Translations under genes and position numbers: made by a program
From: a virus
Virus record (IMG/VR): IMGVR_UViG_3300020419_000006
Location: 62,001-126,000 of that record
Reading direction: 5' to 3' (one strand)
DNA: 64,000 nt
Notes under the pieces: generated by a model
Database searches by the model: none
What the model saw: only the letters and a program-made list of their open reading frames with translations
What the model was told of the DNA's origin: nothing
Shown: piece by piece, positions 56,269-64,000 of the stretch
How the letters are laid out: each line of letters starts with the position of its first letter
How positions within the stretch are numbered: the stretch's first letter is position 1

Positions 56269-57290
56269 CTTCATCATTTTTAAAAAGCATTGTCAAAGAG
56301 ATTGACAATGAATACGCAGGATTATTATCAGAAGGTGGTGTCGGTGACATTGAATCTTTTGTAGACACAGGATCATATATTTTTAATGCTCTTTGTAGTG
56401 GTAGCATCTATGGTGGTGTGCCAAGTAATAAAATTACTGCACTAGCAGGTGAGAGTGGTACAGGTAAAACATTCTTTTGTCTTGGTGTAGTCCAGAGTTA
56501 TCTAAAAGATAATCCAGATGCAGGTGTAGTTTACTTTGAGAGTGAGGCTGCAGTCACTAAACAGATGATTGATGAACGTGGTATAGATGGACAACGTATG
56601 ATACTAGTTCCTGTCACCACAGTTCAAGAGTTTAGAACACAAGCAATCCAGATCTTAGATAAATATCTTGCATTAGACATAAAGGATCGCAAACCTATGA
56701 TGTTTGTGTTAGATTCTTTAGGAATGCTTTCAACATCTAAAGAACTAGCAGACAGTGCCGAGGGTAAAGACACTCGTGACATGACTAGAGCACAAGTTGT
56801 TAAGGCAATATTCAGAATTCTCACTTTAAAATTAGGAAAAGCAAATGTCCCCTTACTGGTTACAAATCACACATACGATGTCGTTGGTGCCTATGTTCCA
56901 ACTAAAGAAATGGGTGGAGGTAGTGGACTTAAATACGCTGCGAGTACAATCATATACTTATCAAAGAAAAAGGAGAAAGATGGAAAGGAAGTTATTGGAA
57001 ACATTGTCAAAGCAAAGGCTGCTAAGTCGCGTCTAACTGTAGAGAATTCAATAGTAGAGACGAGGTTATATTTTGATGCACGTGGACTTGACAAATATTA
57101 CGGGTTACTGGAACTGGGTGAGAAGTATGGAGTTTTTGAACGTAAGGGAAACCGTGTTGTTGTTGGGGAGTCTAGCGTCTATCCTTCTGCTATTCTCAAG
57201 GATCCTGACAAGTACTTCACAGGAGAAATAATGGAGAAACTTGACTGGGCAGCAGGTCAAGAGTTTTTATATGGCAAGGAGAAAGTATAA
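56265..57290 (+). CDS. uvsX: Recombinase UvsX
   Basis: 341 residues. RecA-like: Walker [11 protein letters not shown] (about 62-71), Walker [10 protein letters not shown], and a Gly-rich loop [14 protein letters not shown]. Slightly shorter than T4 UvsX (391). It drives strand invasion with UvsY and gp32. TAATG overlap with the following oxygenase. Confidence 0.93.
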
Positions 57291-57940
57291 TGTTTCCAGG
57301 ATTAGAACCACCCTCTCTTGACATCAATGATTATAAGAAGACTGTAAAAAAGAGTTCAGATATTAAAGTACTATTTCCTTCTCTCGTATTCCAAGCAAAG
57401 GTAGAGGGATTTGAACCTATCCAAGATGAACTAATTGGGTATTCTTATGGGGAAAGAGGTAGAGATCCAGAAGGTGCATCAGCAACTAATATAAATGGTT
57501 GGCAATCTAAAAATAATTACCACGAAAAGCAATCAACTCTCCTAGATGTACTAGCAAGAGGTCTATCTAGCATTGGTGGATTTAGAGATGGATTTGGTTT
57601 GAAGATGACAGGTATGTGGATCAATATTAATCCACCAGGTTCACTTAATAATGGACATACTCATCCCAATTGTGATCTTTCGGGTGTTATGTGGATTAAA
57701 TCTCAACCTGAGTGTGGCAAGATAGAATTTGAAAATCCAAATTACTATAGTCATCCTAACATAGCAGGTTATTCTAATGAATTGATAGAAAATACAGATA
57801 TATTTCCTGCATATGATTTTGCACCTCAAGATGGTGAGATATTATTGTTCCCATCTTACCTCAGACATGGTGTACACGTGAATAATTCTAAGGAAGATAG
57901 GATATCTGTCGCATTTAACTGTAATTTGGTGCAAGCATGA
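57290..57940 (+). CDS. 2OG-Fe(II) oxygenase-like protein (TIGR02466/PF13759 type)
   Basis: 216 residues. NNGHTHPNCDLSGVMWIK is the family's metal-binding strand; DGEILLFPSYLRHGVHVN supplies the second His and RISVAFN the Arg for 2-oxoglutarate. Many cyanophages carry such enzymes; substrates are unknown. ATGA overlap with a second oxygenase-like gene. Both sit between uvsX and gp41. Confidence 0.78.
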   Translation: MFPGLEPPSLDINDYKKTVKKSSDIKVLFPSLVFQAKVEGFEPIQDELIGYSYGERGRDPEGASATNINGWQSKNNYHEKQSTLLDVLARGLSSIGGFRDGFGLKMTGMWININPPGSLNNGHTHPNCDLSGVMWIKSQPECGKIEFENPNYYSHPNIAGYSNELIENTDIFPAYDFAPQDGEILLFPSYLRHGVHVNNSKEDRISVAFNCNLVQA

Positions 57941-58515
57941 GAGACGATTTATTTGCCATCCCTGTTAGAAAATATAACGTTGACAATAATCAACAGTTTA
58001 TTGATTATGTCTCTAATATATGGAAGGAAGAGAGGTTAAGAGTACCTTCTCCTTTCTTGTTTAGTGTCAGAGAATTTGGGTACAACCTAACTCAGATATA
58101 CACTGACCTATTAGAGCAATTTCTTACTGATATTGAGTGTTTTGACACGCATTCAATTACTATGGATGCAATTATACTTAAGGTGTTAGAGAAGGGGGAG
58201 AGTACTGATAGATTTGATACCCTACCCAGTCACTATACTCTAATACATTACGTTGATGTGGTTGACGGTGGAGCATCAGACACACTACATCATCCTGCAA
58301 GACAACCAATGAATGCATTCAAGCCAGCACACATTGATGAATGGCAAGATGCAGCAGGGTTGTATATTAATAAAGGTGATGCTATAATATATCCATCCTT
58401 CATGGAGCATAGTTCTCCTGTCCAGAAGGAAACTAGAATGACAATCACAGTCCCACTAATACTAAAACTGAATGAACAAGGTAGAGAATCTAATATTAAA
58501 GAACCTACTGCTTGA
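57937..58515 (+). CDS. Second oxygenase-like protein of a tandem pair
   Basis: 192 residues. The C-terminal GDAIIYPSFMEHSSPVQKETRM and its following strand match the end of 2OG-Fe(II) oxygenases, with a His and an Arg in the right places. The first HxD/HxH pair is unclear; LIHYVDVVDGG may hold it. It could therefore be an inactive or divergent member. It overlaps gp41 by 44 bases. Confidence 0.6.
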   Translation: MRDDLFAIPVRKYNVDNNQQFIDYVSNIWKEERLRVPSPFLFSVREFGYNLTQIYTDLLEQFLTDIECFDTHSITMDAIILKVLEKGESTDRFDTLPSHYTLIHYVDVVDGGASDTLHHPARQPMNAFKPAHIDEWQDAAGLYINKGDAIIYPSFMEHSSPVQKETRMTITVPLILKLNEQGRESNIKEPTA

Positions 58516-59845
58516 TGAGGTCTATGTCCGTAAGGCATTACCTTTTATTAAGGGAGAGTATTTTGCTGACTTATTAGAGAAGAACTTATTTGATATTATA
58601 TCTAAATACTTCTCACAGTACAACGCTTTACCTACTAAGGAAGCACTAGAAATTGAAGTTGGTCAGTTAGATAGTATATCTGATGAGCAGCATCAAAATA
58701 TTGTAAAATTAATTAGGGATATAGATGATGAAAAATCTGATCCTGACTGGATTGTAGACACCACAGAGAAATGGTGCAAAGAACGTGCAATTTATCTTGC
58801 ACTAATGGAGAGTATTAAGATAGCAGAAGGCAATGATGACAAACAAAGTCCCACTGCTATACCTAGTATACTTTCTGAAGCCTTAGGGGTTAGTTTCGAC
58901 AACCACATAGGACATGATTACCTACAAGATTACGAAGAACGATACGAGTTCTACCATAAAACTGAAGATAAGATACCTTTCGATCTGGAATTCTTCAACA
59001 AGATTACGAAAGGTGGTCTACCTAATAAAACTCTCAACATTGCTCTTGCAGGCACTGGTGTGGGGAAGTCTTTGTTCATGTGCCATGTTGCTAGTGCTGC
59101 TCTTCTCCAAGGTAAAGATGTCCTGTACATCACTCTTGAGATGGCAGAGGAAAAAATAGCAGAAAGAATAGATAGTAACCTTCTAAACTGTGATATACAG
59201 AACTTGAACCAACTACCCAAGTTGATGTTCGACAATAAGATTACAGCATTGAGTAAGAAAACTGAAGGTAAGTTGATCGTTAAGGAATATCCTACAGCAT
59301 CAGCACATTGTGGTCATTTCAAGTCATTACTCAATGAGTTAGCCTTGAAAAAATCATTCAAACCTGATATAATATTCATAGACTACCTCAATATATGCTC
59401 ATCATCAAGGTATCGAGCAGCAAGTAATGTCAACTCGTATTCCTACATCAAGGCAATCGCAGAAGAACTTAGAGGACTTGCAGTCGAAGCAAACTTACCT
59501 ATCGTATCTGCTACTCAGACCACTCGTTCTGGTTTTGCTAGTAGTGATATTGATCTCACCGATACAAGTGAGTCATTTGGTTTACCTGCTACTGCTGACC
59601 TTATGTTTGCTCTTATCTCTTCCGAAGAGTTGGAAGGATTAGGACAGATAATGGTTAAGCAATTGAAAAATAGATACAATGATCCTACTGTGAACAAACG
59701 TTTCGTGGTGGGTATTGACAGAGCTAAGATGAGGTTGTATGATGTAGAGCAAAGTGCTCAACAAAACTTGTCCGACTCTGGACAAGAGGACATGGAGAAA
59801 GTTCAAGAGAATTTATCTAAGAAATTTGCCAGTCTGAAAGTATAA
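58472..59845 (+). CDS. 41: Replicative helicase gp41
   Basis: 457 residues (T4 475). DnaB-like: N-terminal helical domain (ENLILKNLLLDEVYVRKALP), Walker A GTGVGKSLFM (about 195-204), Walker B DIIFIDYLNIC, and a late QLKNRY segment. It unwinds DNA at the fork and works with a primase (gp61), not seen in this window. The start lies within the preceding gene but carries the conserved N-terminus. Confidence 0.92.
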   Translation: MNKVENLILKNLLLDEVYVRKALPFIKGEYFADLLEKNLFDIISKYFSQYNALPTKEALEIEVGQLDSISDEQHQNIVKLIRDIDDEKSDPDWIVDTTEKWCKERAIYLALMESIKIAEGNDDKQSPTAIPSILSEALGVSFDNHIGHDYLQDYEERYEFYHKTEDKIPFDLEFFNKITKGGLPNKTLNIALAGTGVGKSLFMCHVASAALLQGKDVLYITLEMAEEKIAERIDSNLLNCDIQNLNQLPKLMFDNKITALSKKTEGKLIVKEYPTASAHCGHFKSLLNELALKKSFKPDIIFIDYLNICSSSRYRAASNVNSYSYIKAIAEELRGLAVEANLPIVSATQTTRSGFASSDIDLTDTSESFGLPATADLMFALISSEELEGLGQIMVKQLKNRYNDPTVNKRFVVGIDRAKMRLYDVEQSAQQNLSDSGQEDMEKVQENLSKKFASLKV

Positions 59846-59871: not shown

Positions 59872-60276
59872 ATGACAATAGATTTTGATAAGTACAGTCA
59901 TTTCGTGGATACTGTCACAAGCGATAGTTCTAAAGATTTTGTCTATCTTGCTGATCGTTTGGTTGAACTTGACCAAAAGGGTGCCAATATTGAACGCCTT
60001 ACCACTGCTGGCGTTGGGCTTGCTGCTGAGTCTGGAGAGTTCTTGGAGATCGTTAAGAAGATGGTCTTCCAAGGAAAGCCATGGAACGATGATAATAGAA
60101 AGCATCTTATTATTGAGTTGGGTGACGTTATGTGGTACGTGGCACAAGCTTGCATGGCTCTGGACATCAGTTTTGATGAGGTAATTGAAGGTAATATTAA
60201 GAAATTAGAGAAGAGATATCCTGGCGGTAAGTTTGATATCAATTACTCCGAAGTTCGTGCAGAAGACGACCTCTAA
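59872..60276 (+). CDS. mazG: MazG-like nucleotide pyrophosphohydrolase
   Basis: 134 residues. GVGLAAESGEFLEIVKK and IELGDVMWYVAQA give the ExxE and ExxD metal-binding pairs of the all-alpha MazG fold. Family members hydrolyse NTPs or dNTPs to monophosphates. Cyanophage mazG is a well-known accessory gene, once linked to ppGpp though nucleotide substrates appear more likely. A 26-base gap after gp41 precedes it. Confidence 0.88.
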   Translation: MTIDFDKYSHFVDTVTSDSSKDFVYLADRLVELDQKGANIERLTTAGVGLAAESGEFLEIVKKMVFQGKPWNDDNRKHLIIELGDVMWYVAQACMALDISFDEVIEGNIKKLEKRYPGGKFDINYSEVRAEDDL

Positions 60277-60901
60277 ATTTCACCAAGCATTCCCTTTATT
60301 AATATATGAGAAGGAACTTACTGGTTTCTTGAACGTATTGTACCAAGGATTTGACGATGCTAAATTTGACAACAGCACAGGTAAAATAACAGGGGAATTA
60401 AATGGTAAGGTTCTAGTCCATCAGGACTTAAGACTAGAACCATTTTTTAGAGCTGTGAAAAAGTGTGCTGTAGAGTACATGGATCAGTTTGCCATAGACA
60501 AATCTACCTACGAGGTAAATTTTGTTAAGTCTTGGTTTACTATCTGTGATCCTGGTCAGCACTTCCCATGTCACTATCACTCATGTGCACACATATCATG
60601 GGTATACTATATACAGACACCTGGTGACCCCTTAATTTTACATAAAAAGAACCCTAACGAATGGTTTGGAGATGCATTTAAACTCATTAAAGAAAATAGA
60701 TTTAACAATGGTGATGGATATGCTATCACCCCACAGGCTCAGCACCTTATTATGTTTCCTGGTCATCTTGAACACTATACTACTTCTCAACCCAGAGAAC
60801 ATAGACGAATTAGTCTTGCTGGTGACATCCTTCTAACTCTAAAACATAGAACGGATACAGAATCGGGGTTGCTTCCTCCTAAATATTGGAAAAGCTTCTG
60901 A
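60257..60901 (+). CDS. 2OG-Fe(II) oxygenase-like protein
   Basis: 214 residues from GTG 60257; a TTG at 60233 is open too and would overlap mazG by 44 bases. FPCHYHSCAHISWVYYIQ is the metal-binding strand of the PF13759 type. HLIMFPGHLEHYTTSQP gives the second His and HRRISLAGDI the Arg. Substrate unknown. It precedes the 511-residue unknown gene by five bases. Confidence 0.72.
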   Translation: MQKTTSKFHQAFPLLIYEKELTGFLNVLYQGFDDAKFDNSTGKITGELNGKVLVHQDLRLEPFFRAVKKCAVEYMDQFAIDKSTYEVNFVKSWFTICDPGQHFPCHYHSCAHISWVYYIQTPGDPLILHKKNPNEWFGDAFKLIKENRFNNGDGYAITPQAQHLIMFPGHLEHYTTSQPREHRRISLAGDILLTLKHRTDTESGLLPPKYWKSF

Positions 60902-60906
60902 TAATA

Positions 60907-62442
60907 ATGGCATACCAGAACATTGATAGAAGAGATTTACTAAGAGCAATCAAGGGTCGTCCTGTAAAGGAAGAGATGGAAAATATAATGGATGTTGCAG
61001 GTCAGGACTCTGTTTGGAGACATGATCCCAACATAAACTATGGTAAATGGGATGGTAAATCAACATTTGGCACTGAACCTACAGATAGTTGGATCTCTAT
61101 AAAAACTAGTGAGAGTGCTGTCAGAAGATTGATCGCACGGTATAAAAATAGTTACATAACTGCACTGAAAGGTAGTTCTAAAGACTATGATACTGGAGTT
61201 AAACCATACATCTCACTGTACGTTGGTACTCAGAAAATAAAATTCCAAGCAACAGGTAAACTTACTGACTCTACTGGTAAAGCGGTCAGTGAAGCGACCA
61301 TGACAAGGATGCAAGAACTAGGTTCTGCCTTTGTATTCAAAAGAGCTATAGCAGAGAACGCAACGTGGAAGGATGCAGAAGCATTAAAGAGCGATGACGA
61401 TACTATGAAAGGTATCAAGGATATATGGAAGAGGATTGGTAAGGTAGATGAAGTTGATGACACTTGGATAGACAATTTCTATAAGCAACAGAAGACATTG
61501 CTTGCTAAGATAGGCAAACCTGCGTTCACAGAGTTCAATCGTGACGGTGGGTTCATGGAATTTATTACTAAGATAGTCAAAGACAATTTTGATATCAGTG
61601 CTAAGGACAACTGGAACCCTGCAGACATATGGTTGATACAGGATGAGACTAAGTGGACAAATATGATAGGTGCTGCGGTAAATTCTGGTAGAAGAGGACG
61701 TTCAAAAGCAAAGTCAATTACCGAATTAAATGCTATAATGAGAATGTTATTCAAAGCTAGACAAGTGTTTGGTATTTCTCTCAAAAAGGTAGCTGCAGGA
61801 CAGGATGCACGAATACAATTTGTGAATGATAAGAGTGAGTTCTTTACCAAGTTGGATCAGTTGCATTTTGAGTATGAGAAAGCTGATTGTAAGATGGGAC
61901 AGAAGAAAGACAAGGAAGGTTCTATAACTTTATCCACTCAGGACACTAGATTGTACATAAAAGATGGTGGTAATACATATAATTTTCAAATCAAAGGCAA
62001 CAACAGCACTGGGTATTCTAATTTAAAATATGAACCCACCTCATCAGGTGCTACTGCTGCTAGATTAGGTAAAGCAACTGTGGAACTGGTAGAACAACTG
62101 TTAAAAGACTACAGTTTGAGTTTCCAAAAAAGTAATGAAGCATATCCAATGGATGCTGCCCAGTTTCTTGCCAATAAAAATGGCAAGTGGAAAGAACTGA
62201 TAGAGGTTTTGGATAAAGCAGGTGTAGATATTGATGTTCCTGATGTGGATACAGCATATAATAATTTACTATTTGTATTTGGTACAAAACCTCATGTTGC
62301 TAACTCCAAATGCCAACAGATCAAATGGTTATCTGAGTACCTATCACTCAGTGATGAAGATAGAGATCAGTTTGGAACTGACATGGTATTTCTTGCCAAA
62401 AAAGAAGGACGAAAGTACGGTGCATTTGCTAAAATATACTAA
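60907..62442 (+). CDS. Large unknown protein upstream of the KxDG gene
   Basis: 511 residues from ATG 60907; an earlier in-frame ATG (60886) lies inside the oxygenase. Mixed alpha/beta, no membrane segment. A KDNWNPADIWLIQDE motif near residue 240 is similar to segments I have seen in phage nuclease-like proteins, but I cannot assign a family. The C-terminal end is helical and includes GTKPHVANSKCQQIKW. TAATG overlap with the KxDG gene suggests joint function. Confidence 0.65.
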   Translation: MAYQNIDRRDLLRAIKGRPVKEEMENIMDVAGQDSVWRHDPNINYGKWDGKSTFGTEPTDSWISIKTSESAVRRLIARYKNSYITALKGSSKDYDTGVKPYISLYVGTQKIKFQATGKLTDSTGKAVSEATMTRMQELGSAFVFKRAIAENATWKDAEALKSDDDTMKGIKDIWKRIGKVDEVDDTWIDNFYKQQKTLLAKIGKPAFTEFNRDGGFMEFITKIVKDNFDISAKDNWNPADIWLIQDETKWTNMIGAAVNSGRRGRSKAKSITELNAIMRMLFKARQVFGISLKKVAAGQDARIQFVNDKSEFFTKLDQLHFEYEKADCKMGQKKDKEGSITLSTQDTRLYIKDGGNTYNFQIKGNNSTGYSNLKYEPTSSGATAARLGKATVELVEQLLKDYSLSFQKSNEAYPMDAAQFLANKNGKWKELIEVLDKAGVDIDVPDVDTAYNNLLFVFGTKPHVANSKCQQIKWLSEYLSLSDEDRDQFGTDMVFLAKKEGRKYGAFAKIY

Positions 62443-63653
62443 TGAGTAAGAACACACACCTCGAACACTTAGAAGATAGCATCCTCCTTGATGGTAAAGA
62501 GGGTGCTACAGATGCTTTTGTGTTCTTGGATGAACTTGCTAAGACTTTTAGTGCTGGTGGTAATAATAACTTAAAAATTACTACTAAATGGGACGGTGCA
62601 CCTGCTGTATTCTGTGGCACATATCCTGGCACCAATAGATTTTTTGTTGGTAGTAAATCTATCTTCAATAAGGATGCCAAGATCAATTTTACACACTCAG
62701 ATGTAGATGCATACCATGGTGGGTCACCTGGTCTTGCTACTAAGTTGAAAGATTGTCTGACTTACCTCCCTGATCTAGGCATTAAGGGTATAGCACAGGG
62801 TGACTTACTCTTTACTGATGATAAAGAAAAGAAAAAAATTGATGGACAGGACTGTCTTATATTTCAACCCAATACTATCACCTATTGTATCCCTTCAGAG
62901 GATGAACTATATGAAAAGGCACTCAAAGCAAAACTTGGTATAGTATTTCATACCAGTTATAGTGGTAGTACTATCCAAGGGTTGAAAGCATCGTTTGGAT
63001 ACAACGTTAACCAACTAAACAACAGTAAAGATGTGTTAGTTCTTAGTGCTGAGACAGAACAACTAGGTAATGACATCTTACTTGATAGTTCTGAGAAGAA
63101 TGAACTGGTATCAATAAGGACTAAGAGTGCTAGTCTGGTAGCAGGTACGTTCCTAGACACCATGGCAGAGCATAATGCAGGTAAAGATCAGTTAGCTGTT
63201 GGAACTAGACTAAAGATCTTCTTTAACAAGTATGTTAGAGAGGGTAAAAAGATGGGATCATCCGTTACAGTTGTAAAAGAATTTAAAAAGTACTTTGAGG
63301 ATGAGTGTAGGAAGGCAGCAGACAAATTGAAGTCACCAAAAGGTAAGGCAGGTAAACTTGCTAAGTTATATGATGGTCAAGATCTTATCAAGAAGCATGA
63401 GAGTGACTTAACCAAGACGATTGATCTATATAAGAACCTCCAGTTGGCAAAGGAGATGTTCATTCGTAAACTAGAGAAGGGTGAAAGGTTTGGTACATAT
63501 CTCAGGACAGAGAATGGGTACAAGATCACTGCACCAGAGGGATATGTTGCTATCCAAGAGGGATCTAAGGCAGTTAAACTGGTTGATCGTCTCACCTTTA
63601 GTGTTGCCAACTTCAATGTAGAAAAGAACTGGGTCGCAGGAGATAGTAAATGA
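62442..63653 (+). CDS. KxDG-motif protein, nucleotidyltransferase/ligase-like
   Basis: 403 residues. THLEHLEDSILLDG at the start and TKWDGAPAVFCGTYP (about residues 47-61) resemble a phage family I recall as DUF6267. KWDG equals motif I (KxDG) of ATP-dependent DNA/RNA ligases, and GIAQGDLLFTDD and GIVFHTSYSG could be later nucleotide-binding strands. The C-terminal 150 residues are Lys-rich helices. Ligase activity is an inference from one motif. It is ATGA-coupled to a nucleotidyltransferase. Confidence 0.65.
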   Translation: MSKNTHLEHLEDSILLDGKEGATDAFVFLDELAKTFSAGGNNNLKITTKWDGAPAVFCGTYPGTNRFFVGSKSIFNKDAKINFTHSDVDAYHGGSPGLATKLKDCLTYLPDLGIKGIAQGDLLFTDDKEKKKIDGQDCLIFQPNTITYCIPSEDELYEKALKAKLGIVFHTSYSGSTIQGLKASFGYNVNQLNNSKDVLVLSAETEQLGNDILLDSSEKNELVSIRTKSASLVAGTFLDTMAEHNAGKDQLAVGTRLKIFFNKYVREGKKMGSSVTVVKEFKKYFEDECRKAADKLKSPKGKAGKLAKLYDGQDLIKKHESDLTKTIDLYKNLQLAKEMFIRKLEKGERFGTYLRTENGYKITAPEGYVAIQEGSKAVKLVDRLTFSVANFNVEKNWVAGDSK

Positions 63654-64000
63654 GCACATGTTATTTCACATTTGGTAGGTTCAATCCACCCACCATAGGA
63701 CACGAAAAACTTATCAAGGCAGTGGAGAAAGAAGCGGGTTCTAGTGACTGGTTGATCTTTCCATCACAGACACACAAAAAACCAGATAATCCATTGCCAT
63801 ATGAGTATAAGGTTTCCGTAATGCAGAAGATGTTTCCGTTTGCTGCAGATCATATTGATGAAAAGGCATGTTGCAATACTATTATTAAAGTTGCACAGCA
63901 TTTAATGATGAAAGACTATAGTGACCTCATAATGGTGGTGGGTTCTGATAGGGTAACTGACTTTGATAAGATACTACAGAAATATAATAGGGTAGACTTC
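63650..64000 (+). CDS. Cytidylyltransferase/NMNAT-like nucleotidyltransferase, 3' end cut by window
   Basis: 117 residues are visible and the frame runs on past the window. The start STCYFTFGRFNPPTIGHEKL has the GRFNPxTxGH signature of HIGH-type nucleotidyltransferases such as NMN adenylyltransferase, with IMVVGSDRVTDF as a further conserved strand. It would transfer AMP or CMP to a small substrate. Coupled (ATGA) to the KxDG gene. Confidence 0.78.
   Translation, partial: MSTCYFTFGRFNPPTIGHEKLIKAVEKEAGSSDWLIFPSQTHKKPDNPLPYEYKVSVMQKMFPFAADHIDEKACCNTIIKVAQHLMMKDYSDLIMVVGSDRVTDFDKILQKYNRVDF

Follow-up and report, generated by a model that had tools for sequence, protein, structure and literature searches.

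Near the end of a 64,000-nucleotide stretch of a T4-like marine phage (the window; bases 62001–126000 of the 129,240-base viral record IMGVR_UViG_3300020419_000006) lie three head-to-tail genes on the + strand, here called A, B and C. They are predicted to encode a PD-(D/E)XK-type nuclease, a nucleotidyltransferase of the ligase fold and a HIGH-type nucleotidyltransferase, respectively; parts of the trio had earlier been described as gene clusters, or as domains without an assigned function. Our tentative proposal, held at somewhat less than even confidence, is that the trio serves T4-like marine phages in processing nucleic-acid breaks and, in at least some lineages, is delivered together with the genome. 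The proposal builds on a gene order that recurs among relatives, on a structural model in which B very likely has a ligase-type fold, and on N-termini resembling capsid-targeting signals on B and C of related phages. The genes are laid out as follows.

60907..62442, + strand: gene A, 511 amino acids, ATG at 60907 and stop at 62440–62442; predicted PD-(D/E)XK-type nuclease; phrog_1462
62442..63653, + strand: gene B, 403 amino acids; DUF6267, predicted ligase-fold nucleotidyltransferase; PF19782, E 8.8e-123
63650..64000, + strand: gene C, HIGH-type nucleotidyltransferase; first 117 of 183 amino acids in the window; PF01467, E 2.1e-7, above cut-off

Gene order and distribution

The open reading frames (ORFs) and their overlaps, TAATG at the A/B junction and ATGA at the B/C junction (position 63650), are as a first-pass annotation of this DNA had described them, and the three motifs it singled out map to residues 49–52 of B (KWDG), 236–242 of A (WNPADIW) and 9–18 of C (GRFNPPTIGH). 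Gene C runs past the end of the window; in the record beyond position 64000 it is complete, with 183 amino acids (L002:7650-8201). The arrangement is far beyond chance: B hits DUF6267 at 9e-123 and A hits phrog_1462 at 1e-97, and many further contigs repeat the order A-B-C.

Among the matches listed, the nearest named relative is Prochlorococcus phage P-HM2 (PHM2_161-163), at identities of about 47, 72 and 63–64 per cent. B-like sequence is found in 466 of 50,697 phage records, C-like sequence in 525 and A-like sequence in 100. When contigs were collected with A as the seed (80 returned, 77 counted, with L007, L008 and L078 left out), B lay directly downstream of A in 68; four contigs are too short, and five carry no B despite at least 600 bases of following sequence. 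Among the 80 contigs collected with B as the seed, 31 have C next to B, 22 have it within 3 kb and 2 at a greater distance; it was not seen in 14, and 11 could not be assessed. For A, the same contigs give 25 with the gene immediately upstream of B and 1 with it immediately downstream, against 45 in which it was not seen and 9 that could not be assessed. B and C are naturally fused in S-PM2, and one PHROG profile spans both. DUF6267 is present in all ten complete records searched (cyanophages and close relatives) and PF01467 in nine, the exception being S-RIM44, where a gene annotated as a cytidylyltransferase occupies that place. C belongs to a published cyanophage core gene cluster, and both B and C are genes of very abundant ocean viruses.

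P-TIM68 has a variant layout (L169:1935-5392) in which an A-fold gene, a gene for an N6/N4 DNA methylase and a C gene stand in a row, with B approximately 90 kb off; a reading of this phage as lacking B was rejected, B being found at 48 kb.

The first-pass annotation knew of no description of the trio, and our literature search likewise turned up no paper linking the three genes. The label 'unknown' is too strong for two of the members, as B carries the family number DUF6267 and C is annotated as a cytidyltransferase in cyanophages.

Gene B has a predicted ligase-type fold

Gene B is a full-length member of DUF6267 (PF19782), which is T4-GC 71 of cyanophages. The family had no function, and no paper was found assigning B a fold; the predicted ligase-type fold, and the apparent loss of an insertion in short members, are described here as new. 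An AlphaFold model was built from 73 sequences (mean predicted local distance difference test score 87.8, predicted template modelling score 0.82). Upon comparison with solved structures (VIA-align, 992 chains), ligase-superfamily nucleotidyltransferases filled 49 of the 50 best rows, led by trypanosome REL1 (Z 8.3), T4 Rnl2 (7.8) and Rnl1 (7.5) together with the Naegleria RNA ligase. These top rows have Z scores of 7.5–8.3 over 167–191 residues, the best being Z 8.3 over 191 residues, and the alignments span both ends of the model. A Z near 8 by itself is within the typical range of VIA-align for unmatched models, and we consider a ligase-type fold very likely because the list of rows is so uniform, more than because of the Z values. 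The ligase-like fold that the first-pass annotation had suspected in this KxDG protein is thus borne out by structure prediction.

The motifs of B, with their conservation in 148 sequences, are the following.

62586..62597, + strand: motif I, KWDG, with Lys49 as candidate nucleotidyl lysine; K49, D51 and G52 in 148/148
62796..62804, + strand: motif III, QGD (residues 119–121); G120 and D121 in 145/148, the other 3 being gaps
63087..63476, + strand: helical insertion, residues 216–345; helices in the model, mostly missing in the S-SM1 and P-SSM3 members
63537..63551, + strand: motif IV, EGYVA (366–370); E366, G367 and V369 in 138/148, the other 10 being gaps
63576..63590, + strand: motif V, KLVDR (379–383); K379 and R383 in 138/148, the other 10 being gaps

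Relatives of T4 Rnl2 have invariant K35, E99, E204-G205-x-V207 and K225/K227, and B presents K49, D121, E366-G367-x-V369 and K379 in the same order. B thus resembles Rnl2, Rnl1, REL1 and the Naegleria enzyme both in the structural alignment of its core and in the order of motifs I, III, IV and V. To judge from this order, Lys49 would lie in the nucleotide pocket, and B is predicted, with good though lesser confidence than for the fold, to form a lysyl-nucleotide. The KWDG lysine highlighted by the first-pass annotation is invariant in B, with one amendment: gene A holds a KWDG too (residue 47), in its variable N-terminus, where an alignment of 28 sequences has it only in the window protein and in the one from L007.

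B differs from the same RNA ligases in carrying a 130-residue helical insertion before motif IV and in having no C-terminal ligase-specific domain. Two short cyanophage DUF6267 proteins (L166:5941-6912 and L170:3152-4075) have lost most of the insertion and kept the ligase-like motifs, their motif III reading QAD in place of QGD. Nor is an oligonucleotide/oligosaccharide-binding (OB) fold domain, as looked for in a DNA ligase or capping enzyme, apparent after motif V: only 20 of the 403 residues follow residue 383, the last of that motif, and the model closes with a single helix. Capping enzymes of the ligase superfamily have an OB domain, and the capping of nucleic-acid ends, one of the roles that the first-pass annotation had envisaged, loses ground for want of it in B. 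With a predicted ligase-type fold and one specific lysine as the candidate catalytic residue, B can be assayed directly.

Gene A resembles a PD-(D/E)XK nuclease

Gene A, the 511-residue 'unknown' of the first-pass annotation, looks from its motifs like a PD-(D/E)XK nuclease. In 63 sequences, T133, E137, W187, P238, D240, S291, L292, K293, N307 and Q361 are invariant, and they are nearly so in 105 ORFs, in which the candidate active-site residues are conserved as follows.

61315..61317, + strand: Glu137, in a long helix (129–148); 102/105 sequences, the other 3 being gaps
61612..61632, + strand: WNPADIW, with Asp240 as candidate metal ligand; D240 in 103/105, the other 2 being gaps
61777..61785, + strand: Ser-Leu-Lys (291–293), candidate (E/S)xK half of the active site; 104/105, the other being a gap

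In the model, D240 opens a strand, and S291-L-K293 closes one. The order E..D..SxK is that expected of PD-(D/E)XK nucleases of the SxK type, and on these motifs we think it likely that A is a nuclease. A polymerase-beta-type nucleotidyltransferase was considered, as CCA-adding enzymes top the Foldseek list for A; the candidate was dropped, the matches lying in the variable N-terminal domain.

Family A diverges fast. Structure comparison among viral models recovers its fold in cyanophages at 13–16 per cent identity, and the A-fold gene of P-HM1, P-TIM68 and P-SSM3 is the gene in the same slot, as identified by protein length. Where the slot holds no detectable A, an upstream ORF with D..SxK is present in 23 of 45 cases, compared with 37 of 505 control ORFs (Fisher 8e-13) and 34 of 525 shuffles. 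The pattern is loose, being met in approximately 7 per cent of controls, which include chance frames, and the slot ORFs without it include helicase genes, i.e. loci with no gene in the slot. Two replacement families in slot A (5 and 2 sequences) have a conserved D, SxK and Q, and one also G-x3-E; these families cannot be aligned with A and share the same D..SxK.

Sequence searches of the PDB with A, with C and with a slot-A family profile returned nothing useful; in cellular genomes, sampled at one per species across 84,980 species, 41 pattern matches to A were found and none was confirmed; and PADLOC gave no match for five proteins.

Gene C is a HIGH-type nucleotidyltransferase

The assignment of C to the HIGH-type nucleotidyltransferases, made in the first-pass annotation, stands: the part within the window alone scores 31.6 bits against PF01467 (cut-off 21), and the nucleotide-binding motif is invariant in 27 sequences.

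63674..63703, + strand: GRFNPPTIGH nucleotide-binding motif; G9, R10, P13, P14, T15, G17 and H18 invariant in 27 sequences

Like NMNAT/NadD-type enzymes, C combines GRFNPPTxGH with an SASKMR motif; unlike them, it has a conserved SAGxRDPD segment before the last motif. NadD and NMNAT are its nearest curated families, at 24.7 bits versus a cut-off of 112.45 bits, and a profile built from 27 C proteins hits, in the PDB, an uncharacterised chain at E 0.008, a NadD chain appearing only at E 0.46. Because C falls so far below the NMNAT/NadD cut-off, the rebuilding of nicotinamide adenine dinucleotide (NAD), another role suggested in the first-pass annotation, is weakened.

Some relatives carry C within larger proteins of 900–1130 amino acids (L036:4211-7603, L052:8183-10924, L085:3302-6043), fused to PAP2, polymerase-beta-like, P-loop kinase, DUF192 or DUF5824 domains. 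In the record of the present phage, the gene following C (L002:8208-9422; phrog_22379) has segments in common with later parts of the cytidyltransferase profiles phrog_395 and phrog_764, and looks as if it had been split off from a longer C.

Capsid-targeting-like N-termini on B and C of related phages

Translation of the T4 record gives MKTYQEFIAEA as the start of both internal proteins, ipII and ipIII. For packaging, the first ten residues of IPIII are reported to be enough, with residues 4 and 7 weighing most, and the gp21 protease to cleave after L/I-x-E (PMC9026906). A single pattern built on these T4-type rules (the tag) was applied to the trio and to controls, with counts split between loci L016–L086 and the remaining loci.

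In L016–L086 the tag is borne by 24 of 70 B proteins and 21 of 49 C proteins. Because related sequences are not independent, counts are also given for clusters at 60 per cent identity, of which 6/14 are tagged for B and 10/16 for C. Replication and oxygenase genes bear it in 0 of 80 cases in the same loci and in 0 of 231 across all loci, minus-strand ORFs in 1 of 1813, and internal methionines in 0 of 3309. Two loci have the tag on both B and C, and two slot-A proteins outside family A, those of L035 and of the Methylophilales phage Melnitz-1, are tagged as well. The B and C proteins of these relatives thus share with T4 internal proteins a ten-residue N-terminus with aromatics near positions 4 and 7 and an L/I-x-E type site; the cargo differs, consisting here of conserved enzymes and not of small basic proteins. 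No paper was found reporting such a tag on proteins of the trio.

C-like proteins have been detected in the virions of S-SM1 (PMC3037559), of S-CREM2 (PMC10665884), and of S-SCSM1 and others (PMC9602691); a report of B in a virion was not found in our literature search. We consider it somewhat more probable than not that B and C are packaged in the tag-bearing lineages. If they are also injected, enzymes filed as metabolic helpers would become takeover or defence proteins of the first minute of infection.

Near B, a further small protein of 187–195 amino acids with a capsid-targeting-like N-terminus is encoded in four loci (L022:1244-1831, L036:2954-3541, L049:4801-5388 and L068:7783-8346).

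Proposed function and alternatives

We envisage a set in which A, as a metal-dependent PD-(D/E)XK nuclease, would cut or trim nucleic acid; B, its Lys49 charged with AMP or another nucleotide, would seal or adenylylate RNA or DNA ends; and C, as an adenylyl- or cytidylyltransferase of the NMNAT superfamily, would make or recycle a nucleotide cofactor or conjugate. Whether all three act in one break-processing pathway we rate just short of an even question. In tag-bearing lineages B and C, along with some slot-A proteins, would be packed into the head, a gp21-type protease would free them by cleavage after L/I-x-E, and the freed proteins would enter the cell with the genome and act before phage genes are expressed. 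It is enticing to speculate further on a head-borne 'cut-and-seal' kit whose three enzymes are injected to process host nucleic acid or the incoming DNA itself, ahead of all phage gene expression. Its nuclease would be swappable, the slot being exchanged as an arms-race module; the other two members, a HIGH nucleotidyltransferase and a single-domain ligase-fold nucleotidyltransferase that bears a helical insertion and represents a new class, would stay constant. In this full form the picture is rather unlikely.

Several results pull in the opposite direction. Foldseek found no PDB match to the B model at E <0.001, though a DNA ligase led the list; a PDB sequence search with B returned no relative; and model confidence is lower in the part with motifs IV and V. 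Profile comparison of B with the T4 Rnl2 family (hhalign, with A and C as negative controls) detected no similarity (probability 0.4 and 0.1 per cent), and for this reason homology of B to ligases is claimed at the level of the fold only. A likewise has no match among PDB structures at E <0.001, its best VIA-align Z being 4.6 in the variable N-terminal domain, which fills the list; its nuclease call therefore rests on motifs, and unlike PD-(D/E)XK nucleases it places approximately 50 residues, among them two helices, between D240 and K293. Linkage, which the 68 of 77 A-seeded loci uphold for A and B, is not universal: in P-TIM68 and S-CREM2, B and C stand far apart. Outside L016–L086 the tag is found on 1 of 71 B and 6 of 69 C proteins, and on 0 of 97 family-A proteins; in the window, A, B and C all lack it, as does every ATG-started frame of at least 80 codons on either strand, so that the lineage studied here departs from the T4 internal proteins in this respect. 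The authors of two virion proteomes allow for carry-over (PMC10665884, PMC9602691), and the S-CREM2 proteome table does not list the B region, 58992–59762 (PMC10665884).

The fold of B would also suit an RNA ligase that works inside the cell with no injection, resealing tRNAs or other RNAs after cleavage by anti-phage nucleases of the host while A trims and C supplies the cofactor, RNA repair having also been raised in the first-pass annotation. The top structural rows of B (REL1, Naegleria Rnl, T4 Rnl2 and Rnl1) are RNA ligases without an OB domain, the trio sits amid the replication genes gp43-uvsX-gp41-mazG, and phages are known to counter host nucleases by RNA repair (PMC7824862). We nevertheless regard it as unlikely here, as the trio comes without an end-healing kinase or phosphatase, and both the rapid exchange at slot A and the capsid-type N-termini would go unexplained. 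If attention is shifted from B to C, the latter could be a virion-borne nicotinamide mononucleotide adenylyltransferase that raises NAD, with B as an accessory enzyme using NAD. This is the published reading for NMNAT-like virion proteins of cyanophages (PMC9602691, PMC10665884), and it accords with the nearest curated families of C; the scores of C against those families and against the NadD chain, and the failure to account for A, make it decidedly unlikely for the trio.

The exchange at slot A invites comparison with restriction enzymes, which similarly diverge and are exchanged, and A might be a restriction-type nuclease against which C, together with B or a methylase, sets a protective nucleotide mark on phage DNA. 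The P-TIM68 methylase (PF01555, 7e-32), lying between A and C, fits such a scheme; it is a single case, however, with no relative in the ORFs of the loci scanned, and we know of no precedent for ligase-fold enzymes marking DNA bases, which renders self-marking improbable. Finally, B and C could be head-core or structural proteins that have lost catalysis, consistent with the tags on both and with the C-like proteins detected in virions (PMC3037559, PMC10665884). We find this very improbable: in both proteins the residues predicted to be catalytic are strictly or almost strictly conserved, and the short B proteins keep their motifs where the insertion has gone.

Genomic neighbourhood

A T4-type replication cluster precedes the trio, with genes for a uvsX-like recombinase, a gp41-like helicase, MazG and 2-oxoglutarate (2OG)-Fe(II) oxygenases. 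The oxygenase-like genes (PF13759) number three and lie at window positions 57290–57940, 57937–58515 and 60233–60901, amid uvsX, gp41 and mazG and just 5' of gene A; the middle one (57937–58515) scores below the family cut-off.

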